This document shows positions 45,242 to 52,150 of a DNA stretch of 64,000 bases, piece after piece; within the stretch, counting starts at the first letter, position 1; the number at the start of each line of letters is the position of its first letter. Source of the stretch: Specibacter cremeus (GTDB lineage Bacteria > Actinomycetota > Actinomycetes > Actinomycetales > Micrococcaceae). The stretch spans positions 1 through 64,000 of the forward strand of contig NZ_RWKQ01000020.1 of the NCBI RefSeq assembly GCF_003946885.1, given 5' to 3'. The position numbers were made by a program, and so were the translations under genes. The notes below the pieces were generated by a model. It did no database searches. It was given only the letters and a program-made list of their open reading frames with translations, and was not told where the DNA came from.

Positions 45242-45297
45242 CCGGATGTGCCATGCACCGGCGCATCCGGACCCCCTTCCCGAAAGGATCCTTCCCC

Positions 45298-46923
45298 ATG
45301 TCCTTGACGCTGTACCGCAACGGCTCCGTCTACAGCACGGCCGACCCGCTGGCCACCGCCATGCTCGTCGACGGCGACACGGTGGCCTGGGTCGGTTCGG
45401 AGCATGCGGCCGCGTTGCTGCTCGACGACCGGATGACGCTCGTTGACCTGGACGGCGCCCTTGTCACGCCCGGGTTCGTCGACTCCCACGCGCACGTGAC
45501 GGAGACTGGCCTGGCGCTGGCGTCCGTGGACCTGTCCGGTGCGCCGACGCTGGCCGCGGCGCTGGACCTGATGGCGGCGGCCGCCGGCGCCATCGTGCTC
45601 GGCCATGGCTGGGACGAGACGCGCTGGCCGGAGCAGCGCCCGTTCACGGCGGCCGAACTGGACCGCGCCGTGAACGGGCGCGAGGCGTACGCGGCCCGAG
45701 TGGACCTCCACTCCGCCGTCGTGTCGCCGGCCCTGGCTTCGGCCCACGGGCTGGCCGCACGGGCGGGTTGGACGGTCGACGGCCTGGTCACCGGAGACGC
45801 GCACGCGACGGCCCGGGACGCCGCCCGGAACCTGACCGGCGAGGGCCGGGACGCCGCACGGCGGCACGCGTTGCGGCATGCGGCGGCCGCCGGATACGTG
45901 GCACTGGCGGAAATGGCGGCCCCGCATGGCGGATCGCCGGCAGACCTGGCCGCACTGGCCGCCCTGACGGCGCCGGACGCGGAGGAGGCACTGCCCGAGG
46001 TCCTGCCCTACTGGGGCCAGGCCGTGGCCAGCGCCGAGGAGGCCCGCGCCGTGCTGGCCGGGCTCGGCACACCCGTGCTCGGGCTGGCCGGCGACCTGTT
46101 CATCGACGGCTCCCTCGGCTCGCATACGGCGCTGCTGCGCGAGCCCTACGCGGACGCGCCGGGGCACAGGGGCCAGCAGTACCTGACGGTGGAACAGGTC
46201 ACCGACCACCTGGCCGCCGCGTCCGAGCTGGGGTTGACGGCCGGCTTCCACGTGATCGGCGACGCGGCCATGGACATCGCCGTGGAGGGCCTGCGCCGTG
46301 CGGCGGAGCGTGTGGGCATCGACAAGGTGCGTGCCGCCGGCCACCGGTTCGAGCACGCCGAGATGGCCGATGCGGGCGCCATCGAGGCGCTGGCCCGGCA
46401 CGCCGTGACGGTGTCCGTCCAACCCGTCTTCGACGCGCGGTGGGGCGGGGGAGCGGAGCTGTATGCGAAACGGCTCGGCGCCAACCGTGCGGCCACGCTG
46501 AACCCGATCGCCGACTACTTTGGCGCCGGCGTGCCGGTCTGCTTCGGGTCCGACTCGCCGGTCACGCCGCTCGACCCGTGGGCGAGCGTCCGGGCTGCCC
46601 TGGAGCATCGCCAGGAGCGTCAGCGCATCTCCGCCAGGGCCGCGTTCATCGGCCACAGCCGGGCGGGCTGGCGTGCGGCCAAGGCCGCGAACCCGCTGCT
46701 GGGCCAGCTGGGCCCGGGCGCGCCGGCCAGTTTCGCCGTCTGGGAGGTTGAGGAACTGATGGTGCAGGTGGCCGACGAACGCGTCCAGTCGTGGTCCACG
46801 GATCCGCGCTCCCGGACACCGCTATTGCCGGCCGTTGACACCCCGGTGGCGCCGAAGTGCCTGCAGACTGTGCACCACGGCCGGGTGCTCCACGCCGCGG
46901 ACGGGCTGCCCGCGACACTGTGA
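45298..46923 (+). CDS. amidohydrolase (YtcJ-like, amidohydro_3)
   Basis: 541-aa metal-dependent hydrolase. VTPGFVDSHAHVTETG supplies the HxH ligands (about 62-64), and there are GHGWDETRWPEQRPFTAAELD, LGLAGDLFIDGSLGSHTALLREPY with the carboxylated-residue region, GFHVIGDAAMD, AGHRFEHAEM (His ligand) and CFGSDSPVTPLDPW (Asp ligand). Family substrates are amides or formamides of small molecules; this one cannot be assigned. AAAGGA is 12 nt before ATG 45298. In relatives this gene lies next to the lipoprotein-acyltransferase/ppm1 genes; here a 5.7-kb block intervenes. Confidence 0.88.
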   Translation: MSLTLYRNGSVYSTADPLATAMLVDGDTVAWVGSEHAAALLLDDRMTLVDLDGALVTPGFVDSHAHVTETGLALASVDLSGAPTLAAALDLMAAAAGAIVLGHGWDETRWPEQRPFTAAELDRAVNGREAYAARVDLHSAVVSPALASAHGLAARAGWTVDGLVTGDAHATARDAARNLTGEGRDAARRHALRHAAAAGYVALAEMAAPHGGSPADLAALAALTAPDAEEALPEVLPYWGQAVASAEEARAVLAGLGTPVLGLAGDLFIDGSLGSHTALLREPYADAPGHRGQQYLTVEQVTDHLAAASELGLTAGFHVIGDAAMDIAVEGLRRAAERVGIDKVRAAGHRFEHAEMADAGAIEALARHAVTVSVQPVFDARWGGGAELYAKRLGANRAATLNPIADYFGAGVPVCFGSDSPVTPLDPWASVRAALEHRQERQRISARAAFIGHSRAGWRAAKAANPLLGQLGPGAPASFAVWEVEELMVQVADERVQSWSTDPRSRTPLLPAVDTPVAPKCLQTVHHGRVLHAADGLPATL

Positions 46924-47068
46924 ACCACAGGTGACCTGGCCCCCACTGGAGGACGGCGAAGAAGGCGATCACTGTGCGCCCCCATCGGCGCTGCGGACCA
47001 GCGTCGCGGCGAAGACGTATCGCGCCGGCGCCCCGATCCGGCGTTCCGTCCCGCATGGAACCCCGGTG

Positions 47069-47971
47069 TCAGAGCTGCCGGTTGAGGCCGAGTTCATTCA
47101 CAACGCCGGCTACACGGGCGCGCTGGCCCTCGTTCAGCCCTTGGATGGGAAGAGGCAGGCACGATTTTGATGCCAATCCCAGCTGTTCCGCTATTGCCGC
47201 AATGACCCTGATGCTGCCGCCAAGCTCGGCGAACAGCTGCCACAACGGTGCGAGCCGTTCGGACTCGGCCATCGCGTCAGAGAGCCGCCCTTCCAGGGCA
47301 GCCCGGGTGATCCGCATGGCCGGGGCCGGCAGTGTGCCTGCGATGACCGAGTACCAGGCATCGCATCCGGCGGCCAGGCCGGTGGCGGCCTTGGCGTCAC
47401 CGGAAACTCCGATGGTCACGTGCGCAGGGACAGCCGCGCGGATTTCCTGGACCCGGGCTCGTGCTTGCTTCGGGTCGGCCGGTACGCTCGGGATTTTGAT
47501 GGAAGCGATACCGGGCAGTTCCGCGATGCGTCCGTAGAGCCCGGTCGTGAACGTGAAGTGGGTGGTGGCCGGGTTGTCATAGACGATGACGGGCAGCGAC
47601 GAGCCCGCAGTGACGGTCCGGAACAGTTCGAACACGTCATCACCGGTGAGGGGCTGATAGGTCATCGGAGCCAGCAGGAGCCCGGAAGCCCCCGCCTGCT
47701 CTGCCTTCTCAGCGTTGGCGAGTACTTGTGAGGTCCGCAGCGCCCCGACACCAATGAACACGGGTGTCTCACCGGCATGCTCGACTGCCAGACGGGCGAC
47801 GCGGCTTCGTTCCTCACTGCTCAGGTACGCGTACGAGCCGGTGGATCCGAGCGCAGTAATGGAATCAACATTCGCCTCGGCGAGCCGTTCTATCAGGCGA
47901 ACGAAAGCACTCTCGTCAACCGCATCATTTACCAGAGGGGTCAGGGGGAAGGCACTCAAGCCGGTGAACAT
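47069..47971 (-). CDS. DapA-like class I lyase/synthase
   Basis: 300-aa TIM barrel of the dihydrodipicolinate synthase/N-acetylneuraminate lyase family. These enzymes form a Schiff base with a keto acid. Seen: SAFPLTPLVNDAVDE, the site loop GSTGSYAYLSSEER (in place of GTTGE, about 42-55), catalytic Tyr in LPVIVYDNPATTHF (about 131-144), Schiff-base Lys in IASIKIPSV (about 159-167). The IP after the Lys and SYAYL differ from true DapA, so lysine synthesis is unlikely. AAAGGAG precedes the ATG. It is the last gene of the four-gene minus-strand set with EamA, B3/B4 and XRE-cupin; it could split or build an unusual amino- or keto-acid (inference). Confidence 0.85.
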   Translation of the reverse strand: MFTGLSAFPLTPLVNDAVDESAFVRLIERLAEANVDSITALGSTGSYAYLSSEERSRVARLAVEHAGETPVFIGVGALRTSQVLANAEKAEQAGASGLLLAPMTYQPLTGDDVFELFRTVTAGSSLPVIVYDNPATTHFTFTTGLYGRIAELPGIASIKIPSVPADPKQARARVQEIRAAVPAHVTIGVSGDAKAATGLAAGCDAWYSVIAGTLPAPAMRITRAALEGRLSDAMAESERLAPLWQLFAELGGSIRVIAAIAEQLGLASKSCLPLPIQGLNEGQRARVAGVVNELGLNRQL

Positions 47972-48120
47972 CGTTTAACTCCTTTGTTTGAATCACGGTG
48001 GAAGCAAAGTGTGCGGCATGTGCCGTTGCCCCGGGCGGGCTGAGCTACGTGTGCACCTGTAAGCAGGGAAATCTCGCGTGGCGACAGTCTGACGGACTCA
48101 CTTACCTGGATGCCTGTCGC

Positions 48121-49038
48121 CTACTTCATCCCCTGGCCGATGAGGTCGGGGTCGGTGCGGGGGCCGGCGTGTTCGCGGGAGCGCGGTTGCCGTCGGCCAC
48201 CGCGTTGCGCGGCGGCGCCGGCGAGGACGACGAGCGTGATGCCACCGAATTGGGTGAGCGAGGGTTGCTGGTGCAGCACGAGCAGGCCGAGGAGCACGCC
48301 GATGGCGGGTTCGAGGGCCATCAGGGTACCGAATGCGGTGGGCGTCATCCGGCGCAGGGCGAACATCTCGAGCGCGAACGGCAGCACCGGCATCAGGACG
48401 GCCAGTCCGAAGGCGGCAGCGAGGATACCGAGGTTGAGGTGTCCGGCGGACTGCGGAATGCCAACGACCGCTGCCGTGGCAGCGGCGATGGGGACGGTGA
48501 GTGAGAGTGCGCCGATGCCCGTGAAGCGATTGCCGATCCGTTGGGTCAGCAAGATGTAGGCGGCCCACCCGATGGCCGCGAGCCCTGCGAACCCGATACC
48601 GGCGAGGTTGATGTCGCCATCCCAGGGTTCTGTCAGCAGGACGACTCCGAGCAGTGCCAAGGCTGGCCAGATAAGTGCCCGCGCGCTGTGGCTACGCACC
48701 GCGGCGACCGCCAACGGACCGAGGAACTCGATCGCGACGGCGGTGCCGAGCGGAATACGCTCGATTGAGGCGAGGAAAGCGATGGTCATCAGTCCCGTGG
48801 CGACGCCCAGCCCCAGAAGCACGGGGACGTCGTGGCGGCGTAGCGCGCGCAATGGAGGACGGGCGATGGCCAGGAAGATGAGTGCTCCCACGCTGAGTCT
48901 GAGCCAGGCGGTTCCGGCCGGCCCCACCGCCGCAATCAGATCTACTGATAGGGCCGAGCTGAGCTGGACCGAGAGCATCGCCGCCACGGCCAGTCCCCAC
49001 GGCGGCACGGGAACACTTTTTAGGACGCGTTTGCTCAC
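48121..49038 (-). CDS. EamA-family (DMT) exporter, RhtA-like
   Basis: 305-aa membrane protein with ten spans in two EamA halves (PPWGLAVAAMLSVQLSSALSVDLI; RLSVGALIFLAIARPPL; SIERIPLGTAVAIEFLGPLAV; second half GIGFAGLAAIGWAAYILLTQRIG; MTPTAFGTLMALEPAIGVLLGLLVL). The sequence AVAIEFLGPLAVA and LMALEPAIGVLLG is of the RhtA type, which exports threonine, homoserine and amino-acid analogues. GTG 49038 follows a GGGG site. It lies 60 nt after the B3/B4 gene and in the same direction, so likely in one operon. Confidence 0.88.
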   Translation of the reverse strand: MSKRVLKSVPVPPWGLAVAAMLSVQLSSALSVDLIAAVGPAGTAWLRLSVGALIFLAIARPPLRALRRHDVPVLLGLGVATGLMTIAFLASIERIPLGTAVAIEFLGPLAVAAVRSHSARALIWPALALLGVVLLTEPWDGDINLAGIGFAGLAAIGWAAYILLTQRIGNRFTGIGALSLTVPIAAATAAVVGIPQSAGHLNLGILAAAFGLAVLMPVLPFALEMFALRRMTPTAFGTLMALEPAIGVLLGLLVLHQQPSLTQFGGITLVVLAGAAAQRGGRRQPRSREHAGPRTDPDLIGQGMK

Positions 49039-49098
49039 GGCTGGCCCCTTCGGGTCTGCCAGTCGCCGAACGCGCTTATCCGGGAATGGAAAAGCATG

Positions 49099-49701
49099 TC
49101 AGTCTCTCTCATTGACTGTCGTGCCGGCGGCTATCAGGCGGCGGGCGACCCTGACGTCGGGACCGAGCCGGGCGACCAGGTCCTCGGCTGCGGTGTGGAG
49201 CGCCTCGTCGGTCATGGGTTCGAGCGCGTCGAGGATGAACAGTGCGGTGGTGGTGTGCTCGCCGAGCTGGGTGCGGCGTGCCTGGCGCCAGTTCCAGCGC
49301 CGGCAGGTCACTCCGGCGTCATCGCACCACACCACCTCGCCGGATTCCGGGTGTTCGATCACCGCGACGCCGTCGGCGGCGGTATCGAAGGGTTCCTTGC
49401 CGGTGGCGCGGACCAGCCGGGGCGCACCGCTGTAGCGAGTCAGATCCTCCCCGCCCAGCGGGACCTGGTGGAGCACTGAGACCGCGTTATAGAGGTCGGT
49501 GAGACCGTTCACCCGAGGCAACCCGGACACCGCACGGCGCAGGAGCGCCTCCAGGCTGTTGCGCGTGCGGTTCGGTTTGGCTCCGAAGCCATGGTAAGCC
49601 TCGCGCCACGCAGCCACGTGCGGGAGCTGCTCGACCGGCCGGTCGCCGAGCAGCTCGCGGGCCGCGGACTCCGCCGCCTGGAGCATGCTCAGCTCAGGCA
49701 T
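49099..49701 (-). CDS. stand-alone B3/B4 domain protein (tRNA-editing-domain-like)
   Basis: 200-aa protein of the B3/B4 fold, which is the editing domain of phenylalanyl-tRNA synthetase beta subunits where it removes tyrosine from tRNA-Phe. Seen: VAAWREAYHGFGAKPNRTRNSLEALLRR, the hallmark VNGLTDLYNAVSVLHQVPLGGEDL (about 72-95), VIEHPESGEVVWCDDAGVTCRRWNWRQARRTQL, TTALFILDALEPM. Free-standing members are thought to clear mis-charged tRNA or bind free amino acids, but are little studied. ATG 49701 is preferred: it begins 8 nt before the end of the XRE-cupin gene, typical of coupled genes. EamA exporter follows. Confidence 0.88.
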   Translation of the reverse strand: MPELSMLQAAESAARELLGDRPVEQLPHVAAWREAYHGFGAKPNRTRNSLEALLRRAVSGLPRVNGLTDLYNAVSVLHQVPLGGEDLTRYSGAPRLVRATGKEPFDTAADGVAVIEHPESGEVVWCDDAGVTCRRWNWRQARRTQLGEHTTTALFILDALEPMTDEALHTAAEDLVARLGPDVRVARRLIAAGTTVNERD

Positions 49702-50299
49702 CGGACGCCTCCGGCCGGTGTCTTGTTCCCACACCCGGCTCGAAGACGGCCAGGGAGAACCTTGCCGGCTCCGTGCCCGGATTGGCGTAAGAGTGTGCCA
49801 CGTCGCCCGGGAACGTCACTGCATCGCCTACATCGAGGGTGACCGATTGGCCTGCGACCTCTACCGTGACAGTGCCCTGCTGGACCTGCAAGAGCTCCTT
49901 GGTGCCCGATGTGTGGGCCTCGCTCACGTGACGGTCGCCGGAACCCAGCGTCCAGTCCCATAGTTCAACCACGTCCGGCGGCTCGGTGCCGGCAACCAAT
50001 ACCCCGCGGCCGCCGGACTCACCGATCCACAAAGCGGCGCCCTCACCACTGCGGGTGACATTTACCGGCTTCGGCCGAGGTGGCTCGACCAACGCCGGCA
50101 GCCCCACACCGAGCGCGTCGCTGATCCTCAGGAGTGTTCCCACGCTGGGATTCGCGGCACCCTGCTCCACGTTGACTACCATCCTGCGGCTTACCCCTGC
50201 AGACTCGGCCAGCTGATCAAGCGTCCAGCCCCGCAACTGCCTCTCCTGCTTAACCCGGGCGCCGATTGCCAGCGCCAAGGTCGTTGTACTCTGATCCAT
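49694..50299 (-). CDS. XRE-family regulator with cupin domain
   Basis: 201-aa regulator. The N-terminal helix-turn-helix is ALAIGARVKQERQLRGWTLDQLAESAGVSRRMVVNVEQGAANPSVGTLLRISDALGV (about 8-64). The C-terminal cupin sensor is LWDWTLGSGDRHVSEAHTSGTKELLQVQQGTVTVEVAGQ and GDAVTFPGDVAHSYANPG, with His at about 131 and 178 as possible metal or ligand residues. ATG 50299 has TATGAT 6 nt upstream, so it is probably leaderless; an in-frame GTG at 50317 lies inside the operator. It heads the minus-strand set and overlaps the B3/B4 gene by 8 nt. This class commonly represses its own operon and releases on binding a small amine or amino acid. Confidence 0.9.
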   Translation of the reverse strand: MDQSTTTLALAIGARVKQERQLRGWTLDQLAESAGVSRRMVVNVEQGAANPSVGTLLRISDALGVGLPALVEPPRPKPVNVTRSGEGAALWIGESGGRGVLVAGTEPPDVVELWDWTLGSGDRHVSEAHTSGTKELLQVQQGTVTVEVAGQSVTLDVGDAVTFPGDVAHSYANPGTEPARFSLAVFEPGVGTRHRPEASDA

Positions 50300-50300
50300 A

Positions 50301-50329
50301 AGTGCATCATACTGCACTCTCAGTGCACT
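50301..50329 (-). promoter_or_regulatory. operator and leaderless promoter of the XRE-B3/B4-EamA set
   Basis: Half-sites AGTGCA (50301-50306), TGCACT (50313-50318) and the palindrome AGTGCACT (50322-50329) surround the -10 box TATGAT (minus strand, 50311-50306), which is 6 nt before ATG 50299. Binding there would block transcription directly. Confidence 0.7.
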
Positions 50330-50634
50330 AGGCTACAGCCCTCGTTCGGCCGCCCGTCAATAGGGTGACCCAAAGACCCTCTTGAGCTTCGATGTCGCAC
50401 CTCGTACCGCCAATCAGGACCGAACCATGCATGACTCGTGCAGACGACCGTCCATGGAACACTCTGCACAGACCCCTTGGAGTGTCTTGTGAACGACCCT
50501 TTCCCGAGCGTTGGTCCTCAAGCCTCCAAAATCCGCCGGTACAACACTGATTTGATCCACGAGCGCCAATCGCTGCACGGATCCCGCTCAACCCCTAGAT
50601 GGCAAGACGGTTCGACGTTGCCATCGGCCACTAT
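50330..50634. other. intergenic stretch without recognised gene
   Basis: 305 bp between the divergent XRE and GntR promoters. An 87-codon minus-strand frame here has no homology-like pattern and no ribosome site. I see no hairpin followed by T-run and no RNA motif. Confidence 0.5.
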
Positions 50635-50657
50635 TTGTTCTATAACTTATAGAACAA
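50635..50657. promoter_or_regulatory. GntR operator: perfect 11-bp inverted repeat
   Basis: Arms TTGTTCTATAA (50635-50645) and TTATAGAACAA (50647-50657) about a single C. It ends 4 nt before the AGGAGG of the GntR gene, so it must overlap the promoter or the early transcript. Likely autoregulatory. Confidence 0.85.
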
Positions 50658-50675
50658 AGGTAGGAGGTGGGAGTG

Positions 50676-51068
50676 ATGATCCTCAACGTCGACCTGGCCA
50701 GCGAGGTGCCGATCTACCAGCAGCTTCGGGACCAGATCGTGGAGGCGATCGCCGAGGGCGTGCTGGCCGAGGGCAGCTCGTTGCCGGCCACCAGGACGCT
50801 CGCTGCGGACTTTGGGATCAACTTCCACACCGTGAACAAGGCCTACGACCTCCTGCGACAGCAGGGCTTGATCCGGCTCAACCGCAAGACCGGTGCAGTG
50901 GTGACCTCGACGGTCGCGGACCCGCCGTTCCCCGCGGAGTGGACCGCGAGGGCACGGACCCTGTTGGCCGAGGCCGTCGCCAGGGGAGTACCGGCTCACG
51001 AGGTTCTCAAGACCTGTCGGTCCGTGCTCGATTCATTCGGTACCACGCATCCAGAGGACATGCCATGA
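50676..51068 (+). CDS. GntR-family regulator, YtrA subfamily
   Basis: 130-aa repressor. Winged helix of the GntR type: ASEVPIYQQLRDQIVEAIAEGVLAEGSSLPATRTLAADFGINFHTVNKAYDLLRQQGLIRL (about 7-66). A short C-terminal part of about 55 aa with two helices replaces the large effector domain; this is the YtrA layout, often controlling ABC transporters or membrane proteins. ATG 50676 follows AGGAGG. The stop overlaps the next start (ATGA), so regulator and membrane protein are co-translated. It presumably binds the perfect inverted repeat upstream. Confidence 0.92.
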   Translation: MILNVDLASEVPIYQQLRDQIVEAIAEGVLAEGSSLPATRTLAADFGINFHTVNKAYDLLRQQGLIRLNRKTGAVVTSTVADPPFPAEWTARARTLLAEAVARGVPAHEVLKTCRSVLDSFGTTHPEDMP

Positions 51069-52150
51069 CCGTTGCCATCGTCCTGAGTTCCGTGTTGTTG
51101 GCACTGGTGCTCGTACTCGCCCTGGCGCTGCCCTCGATCAACAGTCCGACCGTGCCCTTCGGGGTTCGGGTACCGGCCCAGCGTGCCGAGGACCCGACGG
51201 TGGTCAGGCAGACCCGCATCTACCGATGGCGGGTACTCGTCAGTGGGATCGTCGCCGCCGGGGTCGGCGTCGTCATCTACGGCGTGACAGGCGAGACGTT
51301 GCTGCTGCCGTTGTCGGTGCTGGTGCTCGTCGGTGTCTGGTACGGCTGCTTCTTCCTGGCCAACCACGAGATCCGGGCCGCCAAGACCGCCGGGGGCTGG
51401 TACCAGGGCCTGCACCAAGGCATCGCGGTGGACACCGCGCTGCGGACCGATCCACCGCGGTTTCCCTGGCTCTGGCTGGCACCGGCGCTGATCGTCACGG
51501 TCGCTACGGTGGTGATCGGCGTGATCAGCTACCCGTCGATGCCCGAGATCCTCGCGGTGCACTACGGCGCCAAGGGCGTGCCCAACCGGTTGGTTGCCAA
51601 GTCGGTCGGCACCGCCTTCTCATTGGTGTTCGTGCAGATCGGCGTGACTGCACTGCTCGTGGGTATCGCGGCGGCCATCTTCTTCCGCAGCCGGCCCGAC
51701 ATCGACCCGGCACACCCGGCCGGCTCCGCGCACTGGCACCGCCGGTACATGTCACTGGGCGCCAAGGCGCTGCTCGGGCTGGTCGCGATGATCGACTTGG
51801 GGATGCTGGGATCATCGCTGCTGATGTGGACCGGGACGGTCACTTCGTGGGCGCCGTTGGTGATCGTGCTCCCGATCCTGGCCGCCGTCGTGGTGGCAGT
51901 CGTGGTCCTGGCCAGGAACAACCGTGAGCAGGATGAGGGCGAGGAGGACACCGGCCTGACCCACCGGGAGGACGACAAGTACTGGCGCGGTGGCCTGTTC
52001 TACATCAACCGCGAAGACCACACGCTGCTGGTTCCGCGCCGGTTCGGTCTGGGATGGACGCTCAACTTCGGCAATCCCAGGGCAGCGATGCTTCTGGCCG
52101 GCGTCGTGGCACTGATCGGCCTGCTGATCACCCTCCGTTTCGGCGGCTGA
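51065..52150 (+). CDS. DUF1648/DUF5808 multi-span membrane protein
   Basis: 361-aa membrane protein with about eight spans. The N-terminal segment LPSINSPTVPFGVRVPAQRAEDPTVVRQTRIYRWRV is the DUF5808-containing family opening. DUF1648 is seen at YPSMPEILAVHYGAKGVPNRLVAKSVGTAF (about 160-189). The end has DDKYWRGGLFYINREDHTLLVPRRFGLGWTLNFG, the DUF5808 motif, then a last membrane helix. No transport or enzyme motif. Homologues stand beside YtrA-type regulators in many Gram-positives, and some relatives (SdpI-like) give immunity to toxic peptides; an immunity role here is a guess from that. Confidence 0.85.
   Translation: MTVAIVLSSVLLALVLVLALALPSINSPTVPFGVRVPAQRAEDPTVVRQTRIYRWRVLVSGIVAAGVGVVIYGVTGETLLLPLSVLVLVGVWYGCFFLANHEIRAAKTAGGWYQGLHQGIAVDTALRTDPPRFPWLWLAPALIVTVATVVIGVISYPSMPEILAVHYGAKGVPNRLVAKSVGTAFSLVFVQIGVTALLVGIAAAIFFRSRPDIDPAHPAGSAHWHRRYMSLGAKALLGLVAMIDLGMLGSSLLMWTGTVTSWAPLVIVLPILAAVVVAVVVLARNNREQDEGEEDTGLTHREDDKYWRGGLFYINREDHTLLVPRRFGLGWTLNFGNPRAAMLLAGVVALIGLLITLRFGG

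Follow-up and report, generated by a model that had tools for sequence, protein, structure and literature searches.

A CtdA-type editing protein in a recurrent XRE-cupin-linked gene cluster of Actinobacteria: a probable canavanine-tolerance operon in Specibacter cremeus

Introduction

What could join a small-molecule sensor, a tRNA-editing domain, an amino acid exporter and a keto-acid lyase in one gene cluster? Four minus-strand genes raise this question in a 64,000-nucleotide (nt) stretch of Specibacter cremeus DNA (GCF_003946885.1, contig NZ_RWKQ01000020.1), which is called the window here and on which all genes are numbered. A sequence-only reading of these genes had proposed a new system that senses an unusual amino acid, edits tRNA mischarged with it, exports it and splits it. 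Herein, we find that the editing protein is a homologue of the canavanyl-tRNA deacylase CtdA, that its gene belongs to a modular cluster recurring in several actinobacterial families, and that the regulator gene of this cluster is preceded by a highly conserved operator. Neither this operator nor a 43-residue deletion in ctdA had been noted in the sequence-only reading. We regard the cluster as a probable actinobacterial canavanine-tolerance operon that senses, edits and exports. Its control would rest with a regulatory protein, a role that a guanidine riboswitch fills in other bacteria. Canavanine is a toxic arginine mimic made by legumes.

Coordinates and Pfam matches confirmed all four predicted genes, which span 47069-50299, together with the predicted overlap of the first two; the 3' end of the XRE-cupin gene and the 5' end of the B3/4 gene share 8 nt (49694-49701). 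Gaps of 60 nt and 149 nt separate ctdA from the EamA gene and the EamA gene from the DapA-like gene, respectively. The start of the XRE-cupin gene is best taken as ATG 50299. The features of the locus are as follows.

50301-50330, minus strand: operator-promoter of the XRE-cupin gene, TAGTGCACTGAG-AGTGCA-G-TAT-GA-TGCA-CT, directly upstream of ATG 50299
49694-50299, minus strand: XRE-cupin regulator, 201 amino acids (aa), start ATG 50299; HTH_3 2.2e-13, Cupin_2 1.1e-12
49099-49701, minus strand: CtdA homologue (stand-alone B3/4 protein), 200 aa; B3_4 3.8e-20, 9f7e E 6.6e-45
49677-49686, minus strand: sole remaining copy of the repeat ATGCTCCAGG, marking the ctdA deletion point; two near-copies in the homologue L033
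48121-49038, minus strand: EamA (drug/metabolite transporter, DMT) protein, RhtA-like, presumed exporter; PF00892 1.5e-13
47069-47971, minus strand: DapA-like class I lyase/aldolase family protein, optional member; PF00701 (dihydrodipicolinate synthase, DHDPS) 4e-32

Results

Identifying the nearest characterized relative of the B3/4 protein was central to interpreting the locus. Its top solved relatives were 9f7e, deposited as 'CtdA Canavanyl tRNA Deacylase', and 9mkl (E 4.1e-41), with 82 of 184 aligned residues (45%) identical to 9f7e. The stretch GVTCRRWNWRQ and other positions were at least 95% conserved in an 87-row alignment and common to 9f7e. Structures were compared using AlphaFold2 models of the window protein and of an intact homologue from Arthrobacter oryzae DSM 25586 (L033). 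The L033 model matched 9f7e over residues 1-231 with a Z score of 29.0 and 9mkl with 28.1, and the beta chains of phenylalanyl-tRNA synthetase (PheRS) ranked next at Z ~16. The window model matched 9f7e residues 35-231 (Z 22.5, 188 residues, root-mean-square deviation 2.1). CtdA was described in 2023 and is represented in the PDB by 9f7e and 9mkl. That work (PMC10018355) showed that Pseudomonas canavaninivorans has a stand-alone B3/4 protein with canavanyl-tRNA(Arg) deacylase activity. Cells without it incorporate more canavanine into their proteins and grow more slowly on canavanine, and many ctdA-type genes are controlled by guanidine riboswitches. A Clostridium perfringens homologue of 35% identity is likewise active there, which places the 45% identity of the window protein within a range already active in tests. 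This combined sequence and fold match suggested that a PheRS-type editing domain had been predicted correctly as to fold and that canavanyl-tRNA(Arg) is the likely substrate; canavanine had indeed been named as a test compound. The protein is no orphan, and with its editing step already described as CtdA (PMC10018355), the claim of a new system without any described counterpart was too strong. The domain stands alone in a 200-aa protein. A PheRS fragment or replacement was ruled out, as a full pheT lies elsewhere in the same genome. Editing of phenylalanine or meta-tyrosine, our initial guess from the B3/4 name, was displaced by the CtdA match.

To describe the neighbourhood, the best 80 of at least 522 confirmed ctdA relatives from a genome-contig scan were taken as the locus set, and partner genes were called with fixed score limits. 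These counts are of loci and not of independent events; two of them (L037 and L078) share one contig, and several end at contig edges. By record title, the loci are from Actinobacteria with the exceptions of L044 (Chloroflexi) and L045 (Sphaerobacter). An XRE-cupin gene was found in 54 loci, an EamA gene in 29, a DapA-like gene in 22, a PaiB-like flavin mononucleotide (FMN) protein gene in 14 and a pyridoxal phosphate (PLP) enzyme gene in 7. The genes are therefore not confined to the window: the full order XRE-ctdA-EamA-DapA was present at 10 of the 80 loci (Arthrobacter, Leucobacter, Acidipropionibacterium and Zhihengliuella), and this shared order makes the arrangement more than chance. Shorter or altered sets comprised XRE-ctdA-EamA (12/80), XRE-ctdA-PaiB-like (8/80), XRE-ctdA alone (8/80), XRE-ctdA-PaiB-like-EamA (5/80), XRE-ctdA-DapA (5/80), XRE-ctdA-PLP (3/80) and XRE-ctdA-PLP-DapA (2/80). 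In a class-level sample of 394 genomes, B3/4 matches at E <= 1e-3 occurred in 87, the weakest lying in much longer frames.

The XRE-cupin gene carries a conserved operator-promoter, TGCACnnnnAGTGCAnTATnnTGCAC, just 5' of its start codon in 52 of the 54 loci that have this gene. At least 10 of the 13 fixed operator positions were matched in these 52 loci, compared with 3 of 2070 random windows from the same loci; at one locus (L103) a distant second XRE-cupin gene was scored, and the adjacent one does carry the operator. The pattern TGCACnnnnAGTGCAnTATnnTGCACT stops a few nucleotides 5' of the XRE-cupin start in the 54 loci examined. At L037, the operator precedes a ctdA gene that lacks its own XRE-cupin gene, and an XRE-cupin gene lies elsewhere on the same contig (L078). 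The XRE-cupin operator is the sole exact site in its own genome. Across the 394 class genomes, 10 exact sites were found in 9 genomes, with a reversed control giving 0 in every row listed. Eight of the 10 lie at XRE-cupin genes, and the site in genome G045 is at a contig end. An exact site in G376 (L174:3765) has no XRE-cupin, EamA or ctdA relatives nearby and is probably a chance match. The TATGAT element could, from its sequence and position, be a -10 box; the transcript would then be leaderless, and the repressor would block it. No guanidine riboswitch was among the Rfam matches at E <= 1 in window positions 46500-51500, and none reached the gathering score in the 9 of the 80 loci scanned.

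Searching the class genomes from the regulator's side gave 13 strong XRE-cupin matches (at least 163 bits) in 12 genomes. Twelve of these adjoin a ctdA or EamA gene, 5 lying by ctdA and 7 by an EamA gene without ctdA; the other, in G104, is at a contig start with neither gene within the 8 kb examined. These neighbour counts make regulator and exporter the steadiest pair, with ctdA as the commonest addition. ctdA is absent at L177, L178 and L179, where the XRE-cupin and EamA genes stand back to back on either side of the operator, and G288 has two such back-to-back pairs. No description of the cluster, the operator or an EamA canavanine exporter was found among the matches listed in our searches, which covered open-licence papers. 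The available text of PMC10018355 contains none of the terms Actinobacteria, DapA, dihydrodipicolinate, cupin, exporter or EamA. As far as these searches reach, the arrangement appears new: a CtdA-family gene under an XRE-cupin regulator with a highly conserved operator, together with an exporter and optional enzymes.

The ctdA copy of the window is a shortened one. Compared with that of A. oryzae (L033), it is 129 nt shorter, in frame, which amounts to 43 conserved residues, and this segment is absent relative to every homologue compared. In L033, the segment starts at ATGCTTCAGG and ATGCTCCAGG follows 129 nt further on, so that 10-nt near-repeats flank it; the window retains a single copy. 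An LRPDY motif within the missing segment was found in 78 of 80 homologues by a pattern not bound to alignment position, with RSDY in the other two, and a 47-row alignment used alongside showed its L, R, D and Y to be invariant. The L033 model has confident strands at residues 28-35 and 230-237, and neither has a counterpart in the window model. The full N-terminal fold of CtdA is present in the L033 model and incomplete in the window model, where 9f7e residues 1-34 are unmatched; the remainder of the window model has a mean pLDDT (predicted local distance difference test) of 89.2. Because the N-terminal strand is absent but the CtdA match is otherwise kept, the window gene is a deletion allele of a CtdA-family gene. 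As judged from the model, its fold is probably weakened. The protein may be impaired, leaving the editing step in this strain weak or lost. Assembly error, laboratory change or natural change could each account for the deletion. The ctdA frame of another genome of the genus, G012 (L182:1374-2117), ends ~36 residues early, with XRE-cupin, EamA and DapA-like genes adjoining.

The EamA protein had been called an RhtA-like exporter. The RhtA model NF007823 does match it, at 143.9 bits, a score far below the equivalog cut-off of 354, so the likeness stands and the assignment as RhtA does not. RhtA-type exporters are known for threonine and homoserine, not for canavanine.

The DapA-like protein was the least certain member of the cluster. 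The nearest solved structure, 2r8w (AGR_C_1641p, E 1.8e-60), is of a protein for which we know of no function. The DapA-like protein itself scored 109.8 bits against the dapA model TIGR00674, below the cut-off of 206.15. The GSTGSYAYL loop, read earlier as an altered site loop, is present and lies near a subfamily signature, GSTGxYxYL in most relatives and GSTGIYMYL in 2r8w. This signature is common to ctdA-linked and unlinked members (compared after five DHDPS paralogue rows from the own genome were dropped) and is not peculiar to the window copy. The protein retains the Schiff-base Lys, in SIKIP, and the Tyr of VYDNP. The Arg that follows this Tyr in 2rfg is missing, which makes dihydrodipicolinate synthase activity unlikely on sequence grounds. 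Orthologues at E <= 1e-60 occurred in 19 of the 394 class genomes, 17 of them without and 2 with a B3/4 match. The proposed sequence of sensing, editing and exporting an unusual amino acid fits our evidence, and the splitting step falls to the weakest member, which is not fixed in the cluster. At 18 of 70 loci, the gene follows ctdA on the same strand at a distance of up to 3.5 kb, and in six of the 18 this distance is 21-69 nt. It accompanies the PLP enzyme gene at 5 of 7 loci, compared with 16 of 61 loci without that enzyme (Fisher p 0.025; 68 loci with enough flank); as the loci are related, this co-occurrence is only suggestive. Speculatively, the pairing points to a reaction downstream of a gamma-lyase, such as one that uses the keto acid of homoserine. 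Across 18 DapA-like regions, no neighbour family occurred in 3 or more save the gene itself and antisense frames, and cluster parts were found in two (L141 and L145).

Metabolic genes surround ctdA on rhizobial plasmids. In Agrobacterium pusense, ctdA lies beside an XRE-cupin gene and among genes for an ATP-binding cassette (ABC) transporter, two PLP enzymes, a small multidrug resistance (SMR) transporter, homoserine dehydrogenase and aldehyde dehydrogenase, and the plasmid clusters of Rhizobium leguminosarum and Mesorhizobium are partly alike. These genes fit canavanine use. Relatives of the second Agrobacterium PLP enzyme, scoring 266-636 bits, are encoded near ctdA in 7 of the 80 loci; the enzyme resembles methionine gamma-lyase, scores below the cut-off of all 25 NCBIfam models listed, and may be a canavanine gamma-lyase. 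In G243 (L231:2907-5838), an XRE-cupin gene, a ctdA split into two frames and a close PLP gamma-lyase-like gene lie in a row. The PaiB-like gene (FMN_bind_2) directly follows ctdA in 14 of 80 loci (e.g., L034:8566-9261), standing between ctdA and the EamA gene in 5, and may supply another step of the same pathway. A PaiB-like gene also stands right after ctdA in Mesorhizobium; used as a query, it matched only L056 of the 80 loci and so represents a different branch. Among 100 downstream open reading frames (ORFs) from loci without EamA, DapA or PLP genes, FMN_bind_2 was present in 7 of the ten scanned directly, and in a Pfam survey of 63, no family exceeded 3 members among the 25 of 66 families listed.

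Outside the cluster, a plus-strand Amidohydro_3 amidohydrolase gene (45253-46923) runs towards the DapA-like gene. At the other end, a GntR-type regulator frame (50667-51068) and then a DUF1648/DUF5808 membrane-protein frame (to 52150) point away from the XRE-cupin gene.

Discussion

In the operon that we propose, the XRE-cupin protein would repress its own promoter by binding the TGCACnnnnAGTGCAnTATnnTGCAC operator that lies over it, and canavanine, a close arginine analogue or a breakdown product would bind the cupin domain and open the operon. CtdA would hydrolyse canavanyl-tRNA(Arg) made by arginyl-tRNA synthetase, keeping canavanine out of proteins; both deacylation of canavanyl-tRNA(Arg) and in vivo protection were shown for CtdA homologues (PMC10018355). 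The EamA protein would export the analogue or its product, and the DapA-like protein, as an optional helper, may use a keto acid formed from the analogue as its substrate. A bolder form would make the cluster a dedicated actinobacterial canavanine regulon, in which the XRE-cupin protein directly senses canavanine or its breakdown product and one operator serves a modular set of CtdA, EamA, PaiB-like FMN, PLP gamma-lyase-like and DapA-like proteins. We advance it tentatively, with somewhat more doubt than belief. If it is true, canavanine would have a protein sensor in the XRE-cupin, matching the guanidine riboswitch in role. The EamA protein would then export canavanine, and undescribed steps of canavanine metabolism would be carried out by the PaiB-like and DapA-like proteins.

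Several observations weigh against a canavanine-tolerance operon. Twenty of the 80 ctdA loci have no partner within 4 kb, some of them being truncated at contig ends. The B3/4 gene is present in only 2 of 23 genus genomes, a patchy distribution, and both same-genus copies, in the window and in G012, are abnormal. Seven of the 13 strong XRE-cupin sites have an EamA gene and no ctdA, which leaves room for a signal broader than canavanine. A close PLP lyase is missing from the own genome, where the best match to the Agrobacterium enzyme is 39% identical (226 bits). Common descent of the rhizobial and actinobacterial ctdA-linked XRE-cupins is not supported by the tree: the rhizobial proteins group with general XRE-cupins (99/95, long branches), outside the actinobacterial operon clade.

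The same architecture could serve against another toxin, a different non-protein amino acid mischarged on tRNA, with canavanine not the natural substrate here. The seven EamA-only sites and the known substrates of RhtA-type exporters would suit such a toxin, and we know of no legume association for many hosts among the 80 loci. We consider it unlikely, given a sequence and fold match to two CtdA-named proteins far above that to PheRS, motif residues common to the tested enzyme, and the PLP and XRE-cupin links to canavanine-type clusters. Within a canavanine-tolerance operon, the place of the lyase gene is less settled, and the functional unit may be XRE-cupin, CtdA and EamA alone, with the DapA-like gene a bystander that has its own promoter and job. 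The 149-nt gap before it in the window, the 17 of 19 genomes that carry an orthologue without a B3/4 match and the lack of a common neighbour family across 18 regions speak for a bystander; its same-strand position after ctdA in 18 of 70 loci, as close as 21-69 nt in six, and its suggestive pairing with the PLP enzyme (5/7 against 16/61) speak for membership. On this evidence, a bystander role is a real possibility that we nevertheless doubt. Nearly evenly balanced, by comparison, is whether the cluster is decaying in this strain, its CtdA a dead allele with only sensing and export left. Loss of 43 residues including a conserved strand and the early end of the G012 copy point to decay. The deletion is in frame, however, the rest of the fold is modelled with a mean pLDDT of 89 and still matches 9f7e at Z 22.5, neither the operator nor any of the other three genes is damaged, and an assembly error is possible.

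Earlier work placed CtdA in Proteobacteria associated with legumes and in bacteria that possess guanidine riboswitches; here it is widespread in Actinobacteria, in a modular regulated cluster. Actinomyces live in the mouth, and the distribution raises the question of how often canavanine or similar analogues reach soil and oral bacteria. The operator provides a sequence tag for finding the whole regulon, and the genes for the exporter, the PaiB-like protein and the DapA-like protein are candidates for further steps.

Comparison with Known Systems

Guanidine-riboswitch-controlled ctdA genes differ from the window locus, where no such riboswitch was found among the Rfam matches. The exporter resembles the threonine/homoserine exporter RhtA in that NF007823 matches along its length and differs in scoring below the 354-bit cut-off. 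With the DHDPS/DapA superfamily member 2r8w (E 1.8e-60), the lyase shares the GSTGxYxYL loop and the retained Lys and Tyr; it departs from the superfamily's synthases in falling below the dapA cut-off and in lacking the Arg found after Tyr in 2rfg. Rhizobial canavanine-type clusters are alike in having ctdA with an adjacent or near XRE-cupin gene and a PLP enzyme, plus a PaiB-like gene in Mesorhizobium, as seen near ctdA in some Actinobacteria. They differ in that no EamA or DapA-like gene is annotated in the three stretches examined and their XRE-cupins belong to another clade; the A. pusense cluster has in addition an ABC transporter, homoserine dehydrogenase and aldehyde dehydrogenase. The B3/B4 editing domain of the PheRS beta chain has the same fold (Z ~16 for L033), whereas the window protein stands alone and its family is closer to CtdA (Z 28-29 for L033). 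Compared with CtdA itself (PMC10018355; 9f7e, 9mkl), the window copy is without 43 N-terminal residues and lies among XRE-cupin, EamA and DapA-like genes rather than in a canavanine utilisation operon. It shares with CtdA the stand-alone B3/4 domain, 45% identity over 184 residues and common motifs, and its intact homologue L033 has the same fold over 9f7e residues 1-231.

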